DNA from: a virus
Direction: 5' to 3' (one strand)
Length of the DNA: 64,000 nucleotides
Virus record (IMG/VR): IMGVR_UViG_3300025410_000010
Coordinates: 1-64,000 of that record
How positions within the stretch are numbered: the stretch's first letter is position 1; every line of letters starts with the position of its first letter. The position numbers and the translations under genes are program-made. Shown here in pieces: positions 7,909-23,399 of this stretch. The notes under the pieces are model-generated. The model was not told the DNA's origin and ran no database searches. It saw nothing but the letters and a program-made list of their open reading frames with translations.

Positions 7909-8054
7909 CGTTTGACCTCTTTGATAATGAGTTCAGCGTGAACGTGTTGGCTATTAAGTTTATTAAGATGACTAATAGCGGCAGATTCATTTACGAATAC
8001 TTCGTCCACTTTGCCATTCTTAAGAACAATCCAAACTTTCACCTTATTGTCCAT
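7905..8054 (-). CDS. 49-residue protein from a leaderless-type message
   Basis: MDNKVKVWIVLKNGKVDEVF..., 49 residues, ending by ATGA overlap with the SWIM gene. The ATG lies 6 nt from a -10 box and has no Shine-Dalgarno. Function unknown; short beta-strand-like N-terminus. Confidence 0.65.
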   Translation of the reverse strand: MDNKVKVWIVLKNGKVDEVFVNESAAISHLNKLNSQHVHAELIIKEVKR

Positions 8055-8088: not shown

Positions 8089-8254
8089 GTGTAGGACATT
8101 TCCGATTCGAAGCAGTGACTAGTATGCTCATCCGTGGCGTCCTACGGTCCAGACTCCAAATTCACCCCTGTTTTTATAGAGGTATCGGGACCCTCTACTG
8201 GTAAGCACATGAGCAGATCTAGAAACCGCTCAATAGTAATCCAGCAACTCTTAA

Positions 8255-8380
8255 TGTTGCTACATCTACACACCTGCTGTATGGGCATCGAACCCACATT
8301 TCCTACGCGAAGGCGTCCTATCCATTAGACCAACAGCCAACATATCGCGAATCTGTTGTTGATGTGTAGATGTAGCAACA
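8255..8380. repeat. 18-bp perfect inverted repeat around the tRNA-like element
   Basis: Arms at 8255-8272 and 8363-8380 are perfectly complementary (TGTTGCTACATCTACACA and its reverse complement). In RNA they would close a long stem enclosing the tRNA-like fold. Confidence 0.85.
8274..8339 (-). tRNA. degenerate tRNA-like sequence, shortened anticodon arm
   Basis: D-arm (GTCT, loop AATGGATA, GGAC) and T-arm (GTGGG, TTCGATG, CCCAT) are intact and resemble a bacterial tRNA-Arg. The acceptor stem TGGCTGT/ACAGCAG has one G-A mismatch and one wobble. The segment between D- and T-stems is about 17 nt rather than the usual 22 or more, leaving an anticodon arm of about 3 bp with a 6-nt loop. No CCA is encoded, unlike the four intact tRNAs. 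It is unlikely to decode; it may be a fossil or a structural mimic. Confidence 0.6.
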
Positions 8381-8392
8381 CTTTATATACTT

Positions 8393-8420
8393 ACTATAGT
8401 ACCTATTTACTTTATGTCAA
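8393..8420 (-). promoter_or_regulatory. promoter of the structured RNA
   Basis: TTGACA, 16 nt, TATAGT on the minus strand. It overlaps the 3' end of the gene ending at 8407. Confidence 0.75.
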
Positions 8421-10171: not shown

Positions 10172-11122
10172 ATGAAACATTCTTATATTCTATTAGATCA
10201 TCAAAATCCTTTAAATAAAAACTGGTTTGTAGTTAACTGGTGTTTAGGTAATACCTGTAATTTTTCTTGTAGTTACTGTCCAGAAGGGTTACACGATGGT
10301 TCTAAAAAATGGCCAGACATTGGAGCAGTTAAAAACTTTGTTACTAAAGTTGTAAATCAAGTTGCTCCAAAAAAAGTTTATTTTGAATTTACTGGTGGTG
10401 AAGTTACATTGTATAAACACTTTACAGAACTTTGCCAACATGTAACATCGTTAGGAGCAAGGGTTGGACTTATTAGTAACAGTTCAAGAACTATTAAATG
10501 GTGGGAAAGTCATAAACAATATTTTGATCATGTATGTTTAAGTTTTCATCCAGAATATGGTAATCCAGAACATTTTTTAAATGTAATTAAACTTTTGCAT
10601 AATGATTTAAGAACACATGTTAATATTATGATGGCACCAGATAAATTTGATTTCTGTTTAGAAATTGCCAATAGAGCCGTTGAATTAGGAAATATATCAT
10701 TTGCTATCCAACCCCTAATACATGACTTTGGATCTGTTCTTTATGATTATACCCCTGAACAAAAAAATATCATTGACAAACAATGGGATTTGATAGGGAA
10801 AAAAATAAAACATACAAAACATTTTGATATCTATCGAGGAGCAATGAGCGAAGTTTATATGAGTGGTAGAAAAATTTCACTCGGTGCTCATGTCTTTATT
10901 AATGAAAAAACTAATGATTGGTCTGGTTGGAAATGTTGGGCAGGCGTAGAGCAAATAATTGTTGACATGGATGGTTTTGTTTATAGAGGTTGGTGTAAGG
11001 TTGGTGGTATTGTTGGAAGAATAGATGATCCTTACGTTCAAATACCTAAAGATCCTATCATATGTAATAAAACAATGTGTCATTGTAATTTCGATATTAT
11101 GTCTACTAAAGAGAGATTCTAA
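10172..11122 (+). CDS. radical SAM enzyme 1
   Basis: 316 residues. The [4Fe-4S] motif is CNFSCSYC (about residues 30-37), followed by the SAM-binding FTGGEVTLY (about 75-83). The C-terminus has further cysteines (CWAG, WCKVGG, CNKTMCHC) suggesting a second, twitch/SPASM-like cluster. First of four radical-SAM genes in a row; its stop overlaps the next start. Substrate unknown; the class modifies peptides, sugars or lipids. Confidence 0.85.
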   Translation: MKHSYILLDHQNPLNKNWFVVNWCLGNTCNFSCSYCPEGLHDGSKKWPDIGAVKNFVTKVVNQVAPKKVYFEFTGGEVTLYKHFTELCQHVTSLGARVGLISNSSRTIKWWESHKQYFDHVCLSFHPEYGNPEHFLNVIKLLHNDLRTHVNIMMAPDKFDFCLEIANRAVELGNISFAIQPLIHDFGSVLYDYTPEQKNIIDKQWDLIGKKIKHTKHFDIYRGAMSEVYMSGRKISLGAHVFINEKTNDWSGWKCWAGVEQIIVDMDGFVYRGWCKVGGIVGRIDDPYVQIPKDPIICNKTMCHCNFDIMSTKERF

Positions 11123-12426
11123 TGGATAGAGAAGAACGAAAGAAAACTATTTGCACTATTCCTTGGACTCATAGTGCTGTTTATCAAAATGGTGATTATG
11201 GTATTTGCTGTATGTGTGTTTACAATTCAGGTGGTAGATTATTTACAGAAGAAAAGGCTTCTAATATTGCAGAAACCGATATCGATGTTGTACGTAATCA
11301 TCCAACATATGTTGAACTCAGAAAGAGTATGTTAGCCGGAGAAAAACATCCTATCTGCAAATTGTGTTGGGACGAAGAAGACCTCGGAGGAAGACATTCA
11401 AAAAGACAAGGACAACAATTTTTCTATAAAGATACTTTAGAAAAAATATTAGACGAGGCAGATCCAACAGGACATATAGATAACGAAAAATTTCCTGTTC
11501 AATATTTAGATTTAAGACTTGGAAATCTTTGCAATCTTGCATGTCGCAGTTGTGGTCCAGATAATAGTAGTCTTTGGGTAGATTATCAATACGGTCGTCA
11601 ATTTACAATTAATGGCAGACCCGGAACTTATGAGATTATAGAAGAAAATAAGATTCTTAAAATTAAACAAGATGATTTCAATTACTGGAAAAAACCAGAA
11701 CTTGATGATTTCTTACATAAGGTTTTACCTACAGTTAATAGAATATATTTCACCGGTGGCGAGCCTTTGATTAATAAGAAACATTATGAAATTTTAGATT
11801 ATTGTATTGAAAACGACTTTGCTAAAAATATCGAGATAGAATATAATACAAACGGAACTACACTTAATAAAAATCTATTAGAACAATGGAGACAATTTAA
11901 ATTAGTTGATGTTTGCTGGTCCATCGATGCTATGGGAGATCTTGCACATTATGTTAGATATCCTAGTGATTGGAATGTCATTGAACGTAATTTAAGAATG
12001 TTTGATGAGATTGATATTCCGCATTTATATGGTAGCACTAATGCTACTATTAGTATTTTTAATATTATGCATCTACCTGAATTTGCTACTTGGTTTTATG
12101 AACAAAAATTTAAGAAATTTAGACCAAATCTTAACTGGCATCGTTTAGTATTTCCACGTTCTTATTGTGTGCAAACTATTCCACCATATGCTAAAAAAAT
12201 GATCACTGAGTATTATGATTCATACATTGCAAACAGTGATATACCGGATTTAGAATATAATATATATAATATTATTAAATTCATGAACCAACAGGATAAT
12301 TCAATATTCATGCCTGAGTTTAGAACACTACTCGATCGTCAAGATGAACTTCGAAATCACAATGTAAGGGATTATATTCCCTGGTTAGGAAAGGTATTAG
12401 ATAATCCGTCGTCATGGCTAAGTTAG
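11122..12426 (+). CDS. radical SAM enzyme 2 (twitch/SPASM type)
   Basis: 434 residues. The N-terminus has a cysteine cluster CTIPW...NGDYGICCMC, the SPASM/twitch element placed first, then CKLCWDEE. The core radical-SAM motif is CNLACRSC (about residue 136), with FTGGEPLI (about 213). This layout matches a radical-SAM clade I associate with marine T4-like phages. Overlaps the next gene by 13 nt. Confidence 0.85.
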   Translation: MDREERKKTICTIPWTHSAVYQNGDYGICCMCVYNSGGRLFTEEKASNIAETDIDVVRNHPTYVELRKSMLAGEKHPICKLCWDEEDLGGRHSKRQGQQFFYKDTLEKILDEADPTGHIDNEKFPVQYLDLRLGNLCNLACRSCGPDNSSLWVDYQYGRQFTINGRPGTYEIIEENKILKIKQDDFNYWKKPELDDFLHKVLPTVNRIYFTGGEPLINKKHYEILDYCIENDFAKNIEIEYNTNGTTLNKNLLEQWRQFKLVDVCWSIDAMGDLAHYVRYPSDWNVIERNLRMFDEIDIPHLYGSTNATISIFNIMHLPEFATWFYEQKFKKFRPNLNWHRLVFPRSYCVQTIPPYAKKMITEYYDSYIANSDIPDLEYNIYNIIKFMNQQDNSIFMPEFRTLLDRQDELRNHNVRDYIPWLGKVLDNPSSWLS

Positions 12427-14417
12427 ATCCAGATCTACTAAAACAAATCGAAGAGGCTAAAAGATTATTAACAGGTGATAGAGATCAAATTCTTAAAGAT
12501 CAAATTCTTAAAGATGAGATTTCTAAAAAACCCAATCATGCCAATTCTCATCTCGGTTCTCCTCTAACAAAAAATAATAAAGTTTCTTTTAAAAATCCCA
12601 AAGTCAAATGGTCAAAAACTAATCTATATAGAATATCTATGGTAATTGCTCCTTCTTGGGGAGTACTATTTCCTCCATATAATGTAGCAAAATTAACTTC
12701 ATTATTAAGAAAAGAAGGTTATAGTGTTAAGGCATATGATGTTAATATTGAATGTTATCATCTATTAACAGAATTAACAGGTGAAGACTATTGGAGAGGT
12801 GAAAGATTCTTTTATTGGGTTTTCAAAGATAATTTTGAAAAATACATATTTGATAAAATTAAACCGGTATTAGATAAAACAGTTAATGATATATTAAAAA
12901 GTAATGTTAAGGTTGTAGGCTTTAGTGTCTATAATACTAATGTTCATGCTACTATATACATGGCAAATAAAATAAGAGAACATAATAAAGATATTTGTAT
13001 TATTGTAGGTGGACCAGAAACTATTACAGGACTACATGCAATTTTAAAAAAAGATAAAGAATGTATCAATTATTTCTTTATAGGTGAAAGTGAAGAAAAT
13101 TTATTAAATCTTTTATCTAATCTTCCAAAAAAACTTCCTTCTAATGAAATAGTTGGATCTACTAAAAGTAGACTTTCTTTAGAGAAATATCCATATCCAG
13201 ATTATTCAGATTATAACCTAGAAAATTATTTGGTTTACGGAATTAGTATGGAAACTTCTCGTGGATGTGTTGCCCAATGTTCTTTCTGTGCTGAAACTTA
13301 TTTTTGGGATTTCAGGAGTTTAAAAGCAGAACGTGTGGTAGATGAAATAGAATATCAAGTTAATAAACATAATGTTTTGAGAGTATGGTTTGTAGATAGC
13401 CTTATCAATGGTAATATTAAAAACTTTGAGAGAATAGTTGATCTTATTATTGAAAGAAAATTGCATATAAATTGGAATAGTTATGCTAGATGTGATGGAA
13501 GAATGGATAAAGAATTCTTCAAGAAAATTAGACAAAGCGGAGGAGTTGGTCTTAGTTTTGGGGTCGAATCAGGAAGTCAAAAAATACTAGACGATATGAG
13601 AAAGAAAATAAAAATCTGGGAAATAGAAAATAATTTTAAAGACAGTTATGAATCTGGAATTCATACCCATGCTAATTGGATGATAGGATTTGCCACAGAA
13701 GAACCTATCGATCATTTTCATAGTATGCAACTTTTATTTAATATTAGAAAATATATGAAAGCAATTAGTCCTGGAGCTACTGCTGGAATTGCTGCTCAAA
13801 GTCATTCAGTTACTAATTATGAAGAATATAATATTATTGGAAATGGAACAAGTCCTTCTTATAACTCATTTTTAAAATCTTGGTCTACTAAAGATTTCAA
13901 AAATACAATAGTTCATAGATTTCTTAGACTTAAAATGTTTCATATTTGGTTACAAATAATAGATCAATATAGTGGTAGTATTATATCTAATTCTCATGGA
14001 TATAATATTAAAGATCATTATGAGTTTTCTTTTATAGAAAATTTAGAAATAGAAACTCAAGAACAAGATTTTAAAGTAAACTTTTTTCAATTCGACAATA
14101 ATCTTGAAGGATCTATTGCAAATGAATATGTTGCTTTTTGTTATATGTTGACAAAATACTTTAAAGGCGTAAAATTTCAGTTTAGGTGTGATCCTGACAA
14201 AGATATTTTATTGTTTGGAGATTTACTCGCAAGAAGATATACTACTAACGTATTATTTGAAATAGACGAAGATGATAATTTTCAATTAACTATCGATCAC
14301 GAATTAGAAGAATTCTTTAAAGAAAAGATAGTTAGAAAAGGTCATATAAGTGATTGGAAAACAGATAAAGAAGTTGTAAGAGAGACAATACATGAGCAAT
14401 ACAGAAAAAAACTTTAG
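12414..14417 (+). CDS. B12-binding-type radical SAM enzyme 3
   Basis: 667 residues. The N-terminal 240 residues form a B12-binding-like Rossmann domain (SVYNTNVHATIYMANKIREH, IIVGGPETI). The radical-SAM motif is CVAQCSFC (about residue 284), then VRVW-like strands and SFGVESGSQKILD. The last 200 residues are phage-specific. Such enzymes methylate or rearrange unactivated carbons; substrate unknown. It overlaps the next gene by 26 nt. Confidence 0.85.
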   Translation: MAKLDPDLLKQIEEAKRLLTGDRDQILKDQILKDEISKKPNHANSHLGSPLTKNNKVSFKNPKVKWSKTNLYRISMVIAPSWGVLFPPYNVAKLTSLLRKEGYSVKAYDVNIECYHLLTELTGEDYWRGERFFYWVFKDNFEKYIFDKIKPVLDKTVNDILKSNVKVVGFSVYNTNVHATIYMANKIREHNKDICIIVGGPETITGLHAILKKDKECINYFFIGESEENLLNLLSNLPKKLPSNEIVGSTKSRLSLEKYPYPDYSDYNLENYLVYGISMETSRGCVAQCSFCAETYFWDFRSLKAERVVDEIEYQVNKHNVLRVWFVDSLINGNIKNFERIVDLIIERKLHINWNSYARCDGRMDKEFFKKIRQSGGVGLSFGVESGSQKILDDMRKKIKIWEIENNFKDSYESGIHTHANWMIGFATEEPIDHFHSMQLLFNIRKYMKAISPGATAGIAAQSHSVTNYEEYNIIGNGTSPSYNSFLKSWSTKDFKNTIVHRFLRLKMFHIWLQIIDQYSGSIISNSHGYNIKDHYEFSFIENLEIETQEQDFKVNFFQFDNNLEGSIANEYVAFCYMLTKYFKGVKFQFRCDPDKDILLFGDLLARRYTTNVLFEIDEDDNFQLTIDHELEEFFKEKIVRKGHISDWKTDKEVVRETIHEQYRKKL

Positions 14418-15699
14418 ACTAAACAAGAGTAAAGTATTTTGTATGGCACCTTGGGTTAGTATTAATAATAACCCAAACGGTGATATACTTCCATGTTGTG
14501 TTGCTCGAGATGGAGTCTTTGGAAATCTTTATAAAGATAGTATCGAAGATATTTGGAACAACGAGAAATATAAAGAATTTAGAAAAAATATATTAGAAGA
14601 AAAAGAATGTCCCCAATGTGAAAGATGTTATAAAGAAGAAGAATGGGGAAGTATGTCTAGTTATAGGAAACACTGGAATCAACTATATTACAACAAATAC
14701 GATGAATTGATTCCTAACACCGAACCCGACGGACATTTAGATTCAATGAATCTCTATAGATGGGATTTTCGTTTTAATAATCTCTGCAATCTTGCTTGTG
14801 TTGGTTGTGGACCCGATTATAGTAGTAGTTGGGTTGAACTAAAAAAAAGAATGTGGCCAAATGATGCAGATGACTTTAAAATCTACAGTAGTAAAGAAAA
14901 TAAAGAAAATTTTATTAATACAATTAAAACACAGGCAAAAGTTGTAGATAATATCTATTTTGCAGGTGGGGAGCCATTATTACATCCCGAACATTATGAA
15001 ATACTTTCTGAATTAAATAGGTTAGAAAAATTAGATAAAGTAGAATTTATGTATAGCACTAACTTAACTAATCTTTATTACAAAGATCATTATATCGTTG
15101 ATTATTGGAATAAAATGAAAAGATGTAAAGTAATCGTTAGTATTGATGAGGTTGACCCAGAAAGATTACATTATATAAGATACCCCTCAGATAGAGATGC
15201 AATTGTTAATAACATTAAAATAATAAATCAATCATTAAATAGCGTTGATAAACATTGGTCTATTACTCCGACTTGGAATATTCTAAATGCACATAGAATG
15301 AAAGATATTATAGAATTTTTCTATTTGAACGATTTATTTCCTTATGCTTTCTACAATTCAGTTGCATGGGACGTTGATATAGCTACAATCATATTAATGC
15401 ATCCTAAACATTTATCGATATCTATTGCAACCCCAGAATGGAAAGAATATCTAAATCAAAAATTCAACGAATTTGAAGAATGGTATATTGATACTTTAAT
15501 TCCTTTGAAAAATTCTAATGTGAGAGTATTTGCTACAAAAATTATTAAAGGAAATATGGAAAAATTTAGAAACGCTCTAAAAGAATCTAATGAGAATAAA
15601 AATTTTAAATTCTGGTATCAAAGAATGGACGATGTTAGAGGTACAGACTTTTGTAAGACTTTTCCAGAACTTACTTGGCACATAGACCAATTATTCTAA
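14392..15699 (+). CDS. radical SAM enzyme 4 (twitch/SPASM type)
   Basis: 435 residues, clear paralogue of enzyme 2: FCMAPW...NPNGDILPCC at the N-terminus, CPQCERC, CNLACVGC (about residue 131), FAGGEPLLHP (about 195), and a shared RYPSD segment. It ends against a convergent gene (overlap 9 nt), closing the radical-SAM operon. Confidence 0.85.
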   Translation: MSNTEKNFRLNKSKVFCMAPWVSINNNPNGDILPCCVARDGVFGNLYKDSIEDIWNNEKYKEFRKNILEEKECPQCERCYKEEEWGSMSSYRKHWNQLYYNKYDELIPNTEPDGHLDSMNLYRWDFRFNNLCNLACVGCGPDYSSSWVELKKRMWPNDADDFKIYSSKENKENFINTIKTQAKVVDNIYFAGGEPLLHPEHYEILSELNRLEKLDKVEFMYSTNLTNLYYKDHYIVDYWNKMKRCKVIVSIDEVDPERLHYIRYPSDRDAIVNNIKIINQSLNSVDKHWSITPTWNILNAHRMKDIIEFFYLNDLFPYAFYNSVAWDVDIATIILMHPKHLSISIATPEWKEYLNQKFNEFEEWYIDTLIPLKNSNVRVFATKIIKGNMEKFRNALKESNENKNFKFWYQRMDDVRGTDFCKTFPELTWHIDQLF

Positions 15700-22019: not shown

Positions 22020-23399
22020 ATGGTTAAATCCAAGACTCTAGGGTTAATATTCCTTTTGGCTGCTACTCCTGCTTGGGCTGATCACAGTCCTAAATTTGAT
22101 TGGCCTTGGAAACTAGACGACTCTAATCCACTTAGCACATTAACCATCAACGGACTTGTGCTTGATACTGTGCAAGGTTATCCAACTTATAAAAATAACG
22201 TTGATCCAAATAATCCTTTCAATAAAGGTCAAGTTGACAATATGGTTAAGAGCAGTTTCTATCTTGGTATGAAACTTTGGAAAGGTGCTAGTGTTTATAG
22301 CAATACAGAAATATACCAAGGTTATAACATTTCAAACAATATAGACTTTGCTAACAATGTTAATTCCACAGTTCCAAATGTAAACACTAATAATCCTTAT
22401 ATGCAATTACAAAGATTATTCTTTAGACAAGTAATTGACATAGAAGGCGAAGATACTATTATGCCAGACTTTAGCGGCACACGAAGTGATGCACTTGCTT
22501 CAGTTGAACAGAAACTTGCTGATAAAGTTTCTGAAAATACCCTAACATTTACATTTGGTAAGTTTGCTGTTGGCGATATATTTGATGGTAACATATATGC
22601 TCACGACCCAACTAGAAAGTTTATGAATCAATCCTTTTCTGGATTTGACTCTGTTGACTATGTTGGTAATTCTTGGGGTACTACTGTTGGTGCTATGTTT
22701 GATTGGCATTATTATAATTGGTCTTGGAGAACAGGTATATTCCAGGGATCACTACCACCACCTAGTAATAATATAGATCCAGTTCCCTTAAGACAATATA
22801 TGTTAATATCAGAACTAGAAAGAAGATATCATTTATTCGATAATCCCGGTAGTCTTAAACTAATTGGTTATAGAGATTACGGATATCTAGATCAGAATGG
22901 AGGATACCAAGGTCTTAACAGTCTTATTGATTATGTAAATGGAATTAATAGAACTGAACTTAACGATCTAATGCGAAGAACTGTATTTGGTATTGGTGTT
23001 AATCTACAACAACAATTAGCAGACGGCATTGGATATTTTATGAGAGCAGGTATGGATAATAAGTCTGTATCAATATCTGATATTACTCATACATTCAGTA
23101 ATGGTCTTGTGTTTGACGGGAAGTTATGGAATAGACCCGGAGATGAGATTGGTGCTGCATTTGGTATACAACATATTAAAGGAAATAACATCTTCAATAA
23201 TAATGATCTCAGTTTTACCCCATATGGAGCAGGATCAGCAGGATATGCTGCTCAGAAAACTATAGAAACTTATTACAAATGGACTATTAACGATAGACTT
23301 GCTATAACTGCTGATTATCAACGTGTTATTAATCCTAACTTTAATAGTCAAAGTCATTCTGCTCATGTTTTTGGAATACGTTTGAGGGCTAATTTTTGA
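22020..23399 (+). CDS. OprB-like outer-membrane porin
   Basis: 459 residues. Signal peptide of about 20 residues ending AWA. The mature part is rich in alternating aromatic strands. The C-terminal third (ETYYKWTINDRLAITADYQR, NPNF, then GIRLRANF ending in Phe) matches carbohydrate-selective OprB porins, including the terminal beta-signal. It would be inserted in the host outer membrane. Length fits OprB. Possible purposes: superinfection exclusion or altered uptake; both inferred. Confidence 0.75.
   Translation: MVKSKTLGLIFLLAATPAWADHSPKFDWPWKLDDSNPLSTLTINGLVLDTVQGYPTYKNNVDPNNPFNKGQVDNMVKSSFYLGMKLWKGASVYSNTEIYQGYNISNNIDFANNVNSTVPNVNTNNPYMQLQRLFFRQVIDIEGEDTIMPDFSGTRSDALASVEQKLADKVSENTLTFTFGKFAVGDIFDGNIYAHDPTRKFMNQSFSGFDSVDYVGNSWGTTVGAMFDWHYYNWSWRTGIFQGSLPPPSNNIDPVPLRQYMLISELERRYHLFDNPGSLKLIGYRDYGYLDQNGGYQGLNSLIDYVNGINRTELNDLMRRTVFGIGVNLQQQLADGIGYFMRAGMDNKSVSISDITHTFSNGLVFDGKLWNRPGDEIGAAFGIQHIKGNNIFNNNDLSFTPYGAGSAGYAAQKTIETYYKWTINDRLAITADYQRVINPNFNSQSHSAHVFGIRLRANF

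Follow-up and report, generated by a model that had tools for sequence, protein, structure and literature searches.

The window analysed here, a 64,000-nucleotide stretch forming the first 64 kb of an IMG/VR virus record of 95,384 bp (IMGVR_UViG_3300025410_000010), carries a tRNA-like RNA gene on its minus strand at 8382-8253, with a predicted RNA of about 130 nt, flanked by a gene for a 73-aa protein (8628-8407) and by an open reading frame (ORF) of 49 aa (8054-7905). This element belongs to a real, conserved family of phage non-coding RNAs that has apparently remained undescribed so far, and there is good support for tRNA mimicry as such. The ends of the RNA are brought together by an inverted repeat that is perfect over 18 bp (8255-8272/8363-8380), as the original prediction had noticed, and that extends to a terminal helix of 22 bp when G-U pairs are counted; 40 simulated windows of 64 kb contained no comparable repeat longer than 15 bp. 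The 5' arm of this helix, hereafter the clamp, occupies 8382-8361 and its 3' arm 8274-8253 (minus strand, as for all parts of the element), the latter starting with a conserved GGU beside an unpaired A.

Between the two arms lie a leader hairpin (8360-8338), in which a stem of CAACA (8358-8354) and UGUUG (8342-8338) presents the loop motif CGCGA (8349-8345), and a tRNA-like domain of 63 nt (8337-8275). This domain comprises a 5-bp acceptor (GCUGU/ACAGC) lacking CCA, a U8-type UG, a canonical D-arm (8330-8315, GUCU-AAUGGAUA-GGAC), a canonical T-arm (8297-8281, GUGGG-UUCGAUG-CCCAU) and, at the discriminator position, the unpaired A (8275). The anticodon arm (8313-8302, CCU-UCGCGU-AGG) is shortened to 12 nt, i.e., 3 bp and a 6-nt loop, compared with 17 nt in tRNA, which supports the prediction that this RNA cannot decode. 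The observation on which the original prediction was built is thus confirmed: it had the anatomy right, with intact D- and T-arms, an anticodon arm about 5 nt short, no CCA and no decoding expected; it named no strand, and it missed the leader hairpin and its pairing with the anticodon loop.

Upstream, a sigma70-type promoter (8420-8393, minus strand) combines a -35 box TTGACA (8420-8415), a 16-nt spacer and a -10 box TATAGT (8398-8393). With 11 of 12 consensus positions matched, it is a good candidate for the strong promoter previously proposed, and transcription is predicted to start at about 8386. Similar sites (TTGACA-16-TATNAT) were also seen ahead of the small genes at 8054 and 9134. Downstream, the non-coding tail of the insert (8252-8090, minus strand) is weakly structured (z -1.93), shows no clear terminator and lies outside the conserved RNA.

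The element as a whole is highly structured, with a fold energy z-score of -6.6 and none of 200 shuffles as low. In the minimum-energy fold of the single sequence, CAACAG pairs with CUGUUG and the acceptor is absent; the tRNA-like fold, including the CAACA/UGUUG leader hairpin, lies 0.3 kcal/mol above it, and we favour this predicted fold on comparative data, not on energy. Detection as a tRNA was borderline. The Rfam tRNA model scored 28.4 bits on the tRNA-like domain (8275-8337), just below its cut-off of 29, the element went unlisted in Rfam searches over larger stretches, no non-tRNA family of Rfam matched it, and ARAGORN did not call it as a tRNA. Its counterpart in the viral contig L111, the nearest relative, cleared the same Rfam cut-off with 35.7 bits. 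When a strict pattern for the D-arm and T-arm was run over 2.0 Mb on both strands, the only matches were the element and one real tRNA.

Relatives were found by scanning the viral contigs of IMG/VR with patterns for tRNA-like sequences in which the spacing from D to T is short. The same architecture was present in at least five further sequence groups, represented by L111, by L091 and L094, by L143, by L087 and L092, and by L088, L093, L095 and L100. In these independent contigs, the long clamp (of differing sequence), the leader hairpin, the 5-bp acceptor and the D- and T-loop motifs are shared, and the anticodon arm measures exactly 12 nt in all six core groups, the window included. The nucleotides of the tRNA elbow (GG in the D-loop, UUCRA in the T-loop) are invariant or almost so among members, and the letters at the acceptor junction (A and GGU, with CA on the opposite side) are invariant; in L111, the leader hairpin is identical to that of the window. 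A covariance model (R2) trained on L088, L093, L091, L143 and L087, leaving out the window and L111, recovered the element of the window at 97.0 bits (E 8e-21), the next match in the window reaching 10.2 bits, and that of L111 at 108.9 bits (E 1.1e-23). In a control search of two bacterial genomes (4.7 Mb), the best score was 30.4 bits, which is the level of tRNAs. The search for covariance in related phages, suggested with the original prediction, therefore found both the arms and the fold conserved, and the prediction passed the refutation proposed with it, a lack of such conservation in relatives.

A divergent and unannotated form was also located in the cultivated Synechococcus phage BUCT-ZZ01 (ON615601.1, Kyanoviridae, host S. 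elongatus PCC 7942) at 125406-125588. It was found by BLAST from L087 (E 1e-9), reaches 47 bits with the covariance model on its tRNA-like part, and has a 21-bp clamp of its own, two leader hairpins and a deviating anticodon arm. Other searches were less productive: neither the element nor 25 kb of the window had a useful BLAST match among phage records, a strict pattern of D-arm plus CCUUCG had 0 matches in viral contigs, two pattern scans of genome contigs gave 0 and 2 matches, both scoring like tRNAs, no relatives of the neighbouring 49-aa ORF were found, and no description of this RNA family was found in the open-access literature. Searching with the flanking proteins yielded many distant loci without the element and one syntenic sister, contig L002, which likewise lacks it: its neighbouring 137-aa protein is 96% identical, and only 56 bp stand in place of the element together with its tail and the 49-aa ORF, so that the element is best described as an accessory insert or gene. 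Looser clamped tRNA-like sequences (L108, L112, L118-L121, L104/L159/L166 and L136) were kept outside the family, as they showed no convincing kissing pair. Several of these (L104 2852-2910, L159 4321-4379, L166 1520-1578, L118-L121, L108 and L112) have 5-nt anticodon loops and partly clamped ends, lie within tRNA arrays and are in part called tRNAs by ARAGORN; they possibly form a second, related class.

The comparative evidence for the fold comes from an alignment of seven sequences, in which 94.6% of the cells pair and both-sided changes affect 20 of the 38 pairs, compared with 10.7 pairs after shuffling and 3-6 pairs in slid controls. Within the clamp, such changes were found in 12 of 16 pairs, which indicates conservation as an RNA structure and not as a sequence. 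G-U pairs occur in the clamp, the acceptor and the T-stem; those in the clamp mark it as RNA, and a DNA palindrome was rejected on the covariation. These data support the view, already expressed in the original prediction, that the structure is kept on purpose, most probably by selection.

Complementarity between the leader loop and the anticodon loop was indeed found in every member. The putative kissing pair is CGCGA/UCGCG in the window (5 bp, with UCGCG at 8310-8306), L111 and L091, CGCGAA/UUCGCG in L143, CCGCGAA/UUCGCGG in L087 and CUGCCA/UGGCAG in L088. On the alignment, all cells of this helix (100%) are paired and two pairs are compensated, while slid versions were 9-55% paired. The probability that random loops are complementary by chance was 0.03 for the window type, 0.003 for L143, 0.0012 for L088 and 0.00015 for L087. 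When the leader and arm regions were shuffled in their entirety, single sequences supported the kissing pair weakly (P 0.02-0.2), so that the case for kissing relies on the loop-restricted tests and on covariation. Taken in this way, the data strongly indicate that the anticodon loop kisses the leader loop, which would lock the decoding arm.

From a mechanistic point of view, the reading that we favour, tentatively and at a little short of an even chance, is that of a mimic of the tRNA body, acting in trans as a free-standing decoy or scaffold. The RNA would begin at the clamp, its 5' end being hidden in double strand, and the tRNA elbow would form, so that a non-chargeable RNA could occupy in trans a protein that reads tRNA through its elbow, T-arm and acceptor. 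As the elbow would be displayed without a decoding arm, CCA or free ends, binding to elbow-reading factors is expected; the tRNA elbow is recognised by many tRNA enzymes (PMC4810234), and tRNA-attacking defence systems exist, among which Cas12a3 contacts the T-arm, the acceptor stem and CCA (PMC12851939). Candidate targets would be a defence nuclease that attacks tRNAs, or a protein of tRNA decay or end-processing, and phage and host tRNAs may thereby be spared during infection, the clamp serving as a stabiliser or as a second docking site, like the basal stem of bacterial Y RNA. A more specific version, in which these kissing-locked mimics form a new class of phage RNAs that shield phage translation by titrating tRNA-attacking host defence, produced either from a tRNA operon or from their own promoter, appears rather unlikely as a whole. 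The earlier interpretation is thus partly supported: mimicry stands, and its weakest version is the substrate decoy for a PrrC-type anticodon nuclease, which is unlikely because the anticodon is gone, the arm is cut to 12 nt and the loop is predicted to be paired with the leader hairpin. Competitive inhibition by way of the elbow is possible.

Several points speak against the trans-acting mimic. The RNA, its partner and its effect are predictions based on sequence; no gene for a nuclease or Ro60 partner was identified near the element; the family consists of six core groups only; the covariation of the kissing pair leans mainly on a single compensatory lineage (L088/L093); and the lack of the element in the closest relative of this phage (L002) indicates that it is dispensable in some settings. 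Moreover, the tight association of the relatives with tRNA arrays would also suit a role in processing. All core relatives lie within or at the head of such arrays (up to 22 tRNAs in the portion examined), and in L087, L091, L092 and L094 the element is the first unit of the array, with a promoter-like site just upstream. A cis-acting maturation element of phage tRNA operons, trimming or insulating the primary transcript of the array with the clamp offering a site to RNase III and the tRNA-like body one to RNase P/RNase Z, is accordingly the main rival, unlikely though we consider it. At about 20 bp, the clamp reaches the length that RNase III requires. However, the nearest tRNA lies 28 kb from the window element, which, given its own promoter match, need not act in cis on tRNAs, and a processing signal would have no need of a kissing-locked anticodon arm of fixed length. 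Where the window has the element, L053 (8226-8301) and L055 (5677-5752) carry a tRNA-Thr, which immediately follows their homologue of the 73-aa gene.

The remaining alternatives appear less probable still. A Ro60-dependent bacterial Y RNA of the YrlA type, working with the host Rsr protein and PNPase, would account for the shared topology, in which the two ends of an RNA of 90-150 nt pair as a basal stem and a tRNA-like domain provides D, T and acceptor arms (PMC8394870), but there are few grounds to expect it: no TROVE/Ro60 gene (PF05731) was present in 27 member or related records (18 + 9), mostly fragments, with the complete 156-kb BUCT-ZZ01 genome included, and no Y RNA family appeared among Rfam matches up to E 10, the presence of a YrlA model in Rfam 15 not having been verified. 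Slightly more doubtful is an attenuator or switch, in which alternative pairing of a clamp arm would couple folding of the tRNA-like body to expression of downstream genes. Competing hairpins are visible, upstream of the element in L087, L091, L092, L094 and L143 and downstream in the window (8262-8242), and the lack of a strong terminator could allow read-through into the 49-aa and 137-aa genes; yet the alternative partner lies on differing sides among members and is not evident in L111 and L088, and the downstream content varies, with tRNAs in relatives and protein genes in the window. In the upstream hairpin (L091 9722-9770, and its equivalents in L094, L087, L092 and L143), which lies immediately ahead of the clamp, the 3' strand is the 5' clamp arm itself, so that hairpin and clamp are mutually exclusive, as in a possible co-transcriptional switch. 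Finally, a decayed tRNA gene or a mobile inverted-repeat DNA resembling a miniature inverted-repeat transposable element, devoid of RNA function, could be invoked from the borderline Rfam tRNA score and from the sister phage without the insert. It is highly improbable, in view of compensatory changes all along the clamp, of its G-U pairs, of clamp sequences that differ among groups and of a 12-nt arm that is constant in all six; a decaying tRNA gene, contradicted by covariation, was rejected.

Comparison with known RNAs helps to situate the trans-acting mimic that we favour. Like a canonical phage tRNA with a Glu-type D-arm, the element has a D-arm, a T-arm and elbow nucleotides, and it shows weak overall closeness to phage tRNA-Glu, but its anticodon arm has 12 nt (3 bp and a 6-nt loop) instead of 17 nt with a 7-nt loop, its acceptor 5 bp instead of 7 bp, and its ends, devoid of CCA, are shut in a 22-bp helix. 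As in tmRNA, a tRNA-like domain is carried on a larger structured RNA, but the element has neither a reading frame for a tag, nor CCA, nor an open acceptor end, its D-arm is complete, and it matches no tmRNA model (ARAGORN, Rfam). Calls of tmRNA were made near tRNA arrays in L097 (11010-11354) and L159 (7099-7470), the second being marked tmRNA* by ARAGORN and possibly permuted. Plant-virus tRNA-like structures share the mimicry and T-boxes, in which a tRNA anticodon pairs with another RNA element, share this type of pairing; here, by contrast, the pairing partner is part of the same small RNA, which is predicted to be a separate phage transcript. GOLLD and ROOL are structured phage RNAs that have been described near tRNA genes, but they span hundreds of nucleotides with other folds, and the element has no Rfam match to them. 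By topology, the closest known kind is the bacterial Y RNA YrlA, which resembles the element in the long basal stem into which both RNA ends pair (here the covarying clamp of 22 bp), the D, T and acceptor arms of its tRNA-like domain, the size, the absence of decoding and the hypothesis of mimicry (PMC8394870, PMC7790460). YrlA binds Ro60 with its basal stem; PNPase is bound via its tRNA-like domain (PMC8394870), and competitive inhibition of an anticodon nuclease has been proposed for it (PMC7790460). It differs in that the element has an additional leader hairpin at the junction, the loop of which would kiss that of the anticodon arm, and in that its relatives are located with tRNA arrays; YrlA is encoded near a Ro60/rsr gene, and as neither a Ro60 gene in the 27 records nor a match to a Y RNA model was found, membership is not claimed.

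Other genes of the window also deserve mention. The RNA ligase and the kinase noted in the original prediction are both borne out by Pfam, with a T4 Rnl1-like ligase (PF09511, 1434-2063, minus strand), the match of which stops inside the profile, and a polynucleotide-kinase-like protein (PF13671, 9605-10066, minus strand); they may form an RNA repair pair. A PP-loop ATPase of the tRNA lysidine synthetase type (PF01171, 16046-16657, minus strand) is possibly a tRNA-modifying enzyme. On the plus strand, four ORFs stand in a row at 10172-15699, the last being radical SAM/SPASM by Pfam and the other three radical-SAM-like judging by their CxxxCxxC motifs, and a 459-aa carbohydrate porin of the OprB family (PF04966, E 9.5e-34) at 22020-23399 represents either unusual phage cargo or host DNA. 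The related contig L039 contains, at 2760-2965, inverted repeats that are perfect over 29 and 23 bp.

With this family comes a compact RNA architecture, its tRNA body apparently being closed by a hairpin through a kissing contact with the anticodon loop. Because tRNA finders overlook or miscall such RNAs, the family may be common and have gone unnoticed, and the divergent form in the cultivated phage BUCT-ZZ01 provides a testable handle. The tRNA arrays of phages are regarded as a countermeasure to host attacks on tRNAs; if the proposed reading is true, a non-decoding tRNA mimic within such arrays would be a separate tool in this tRNA conflict.
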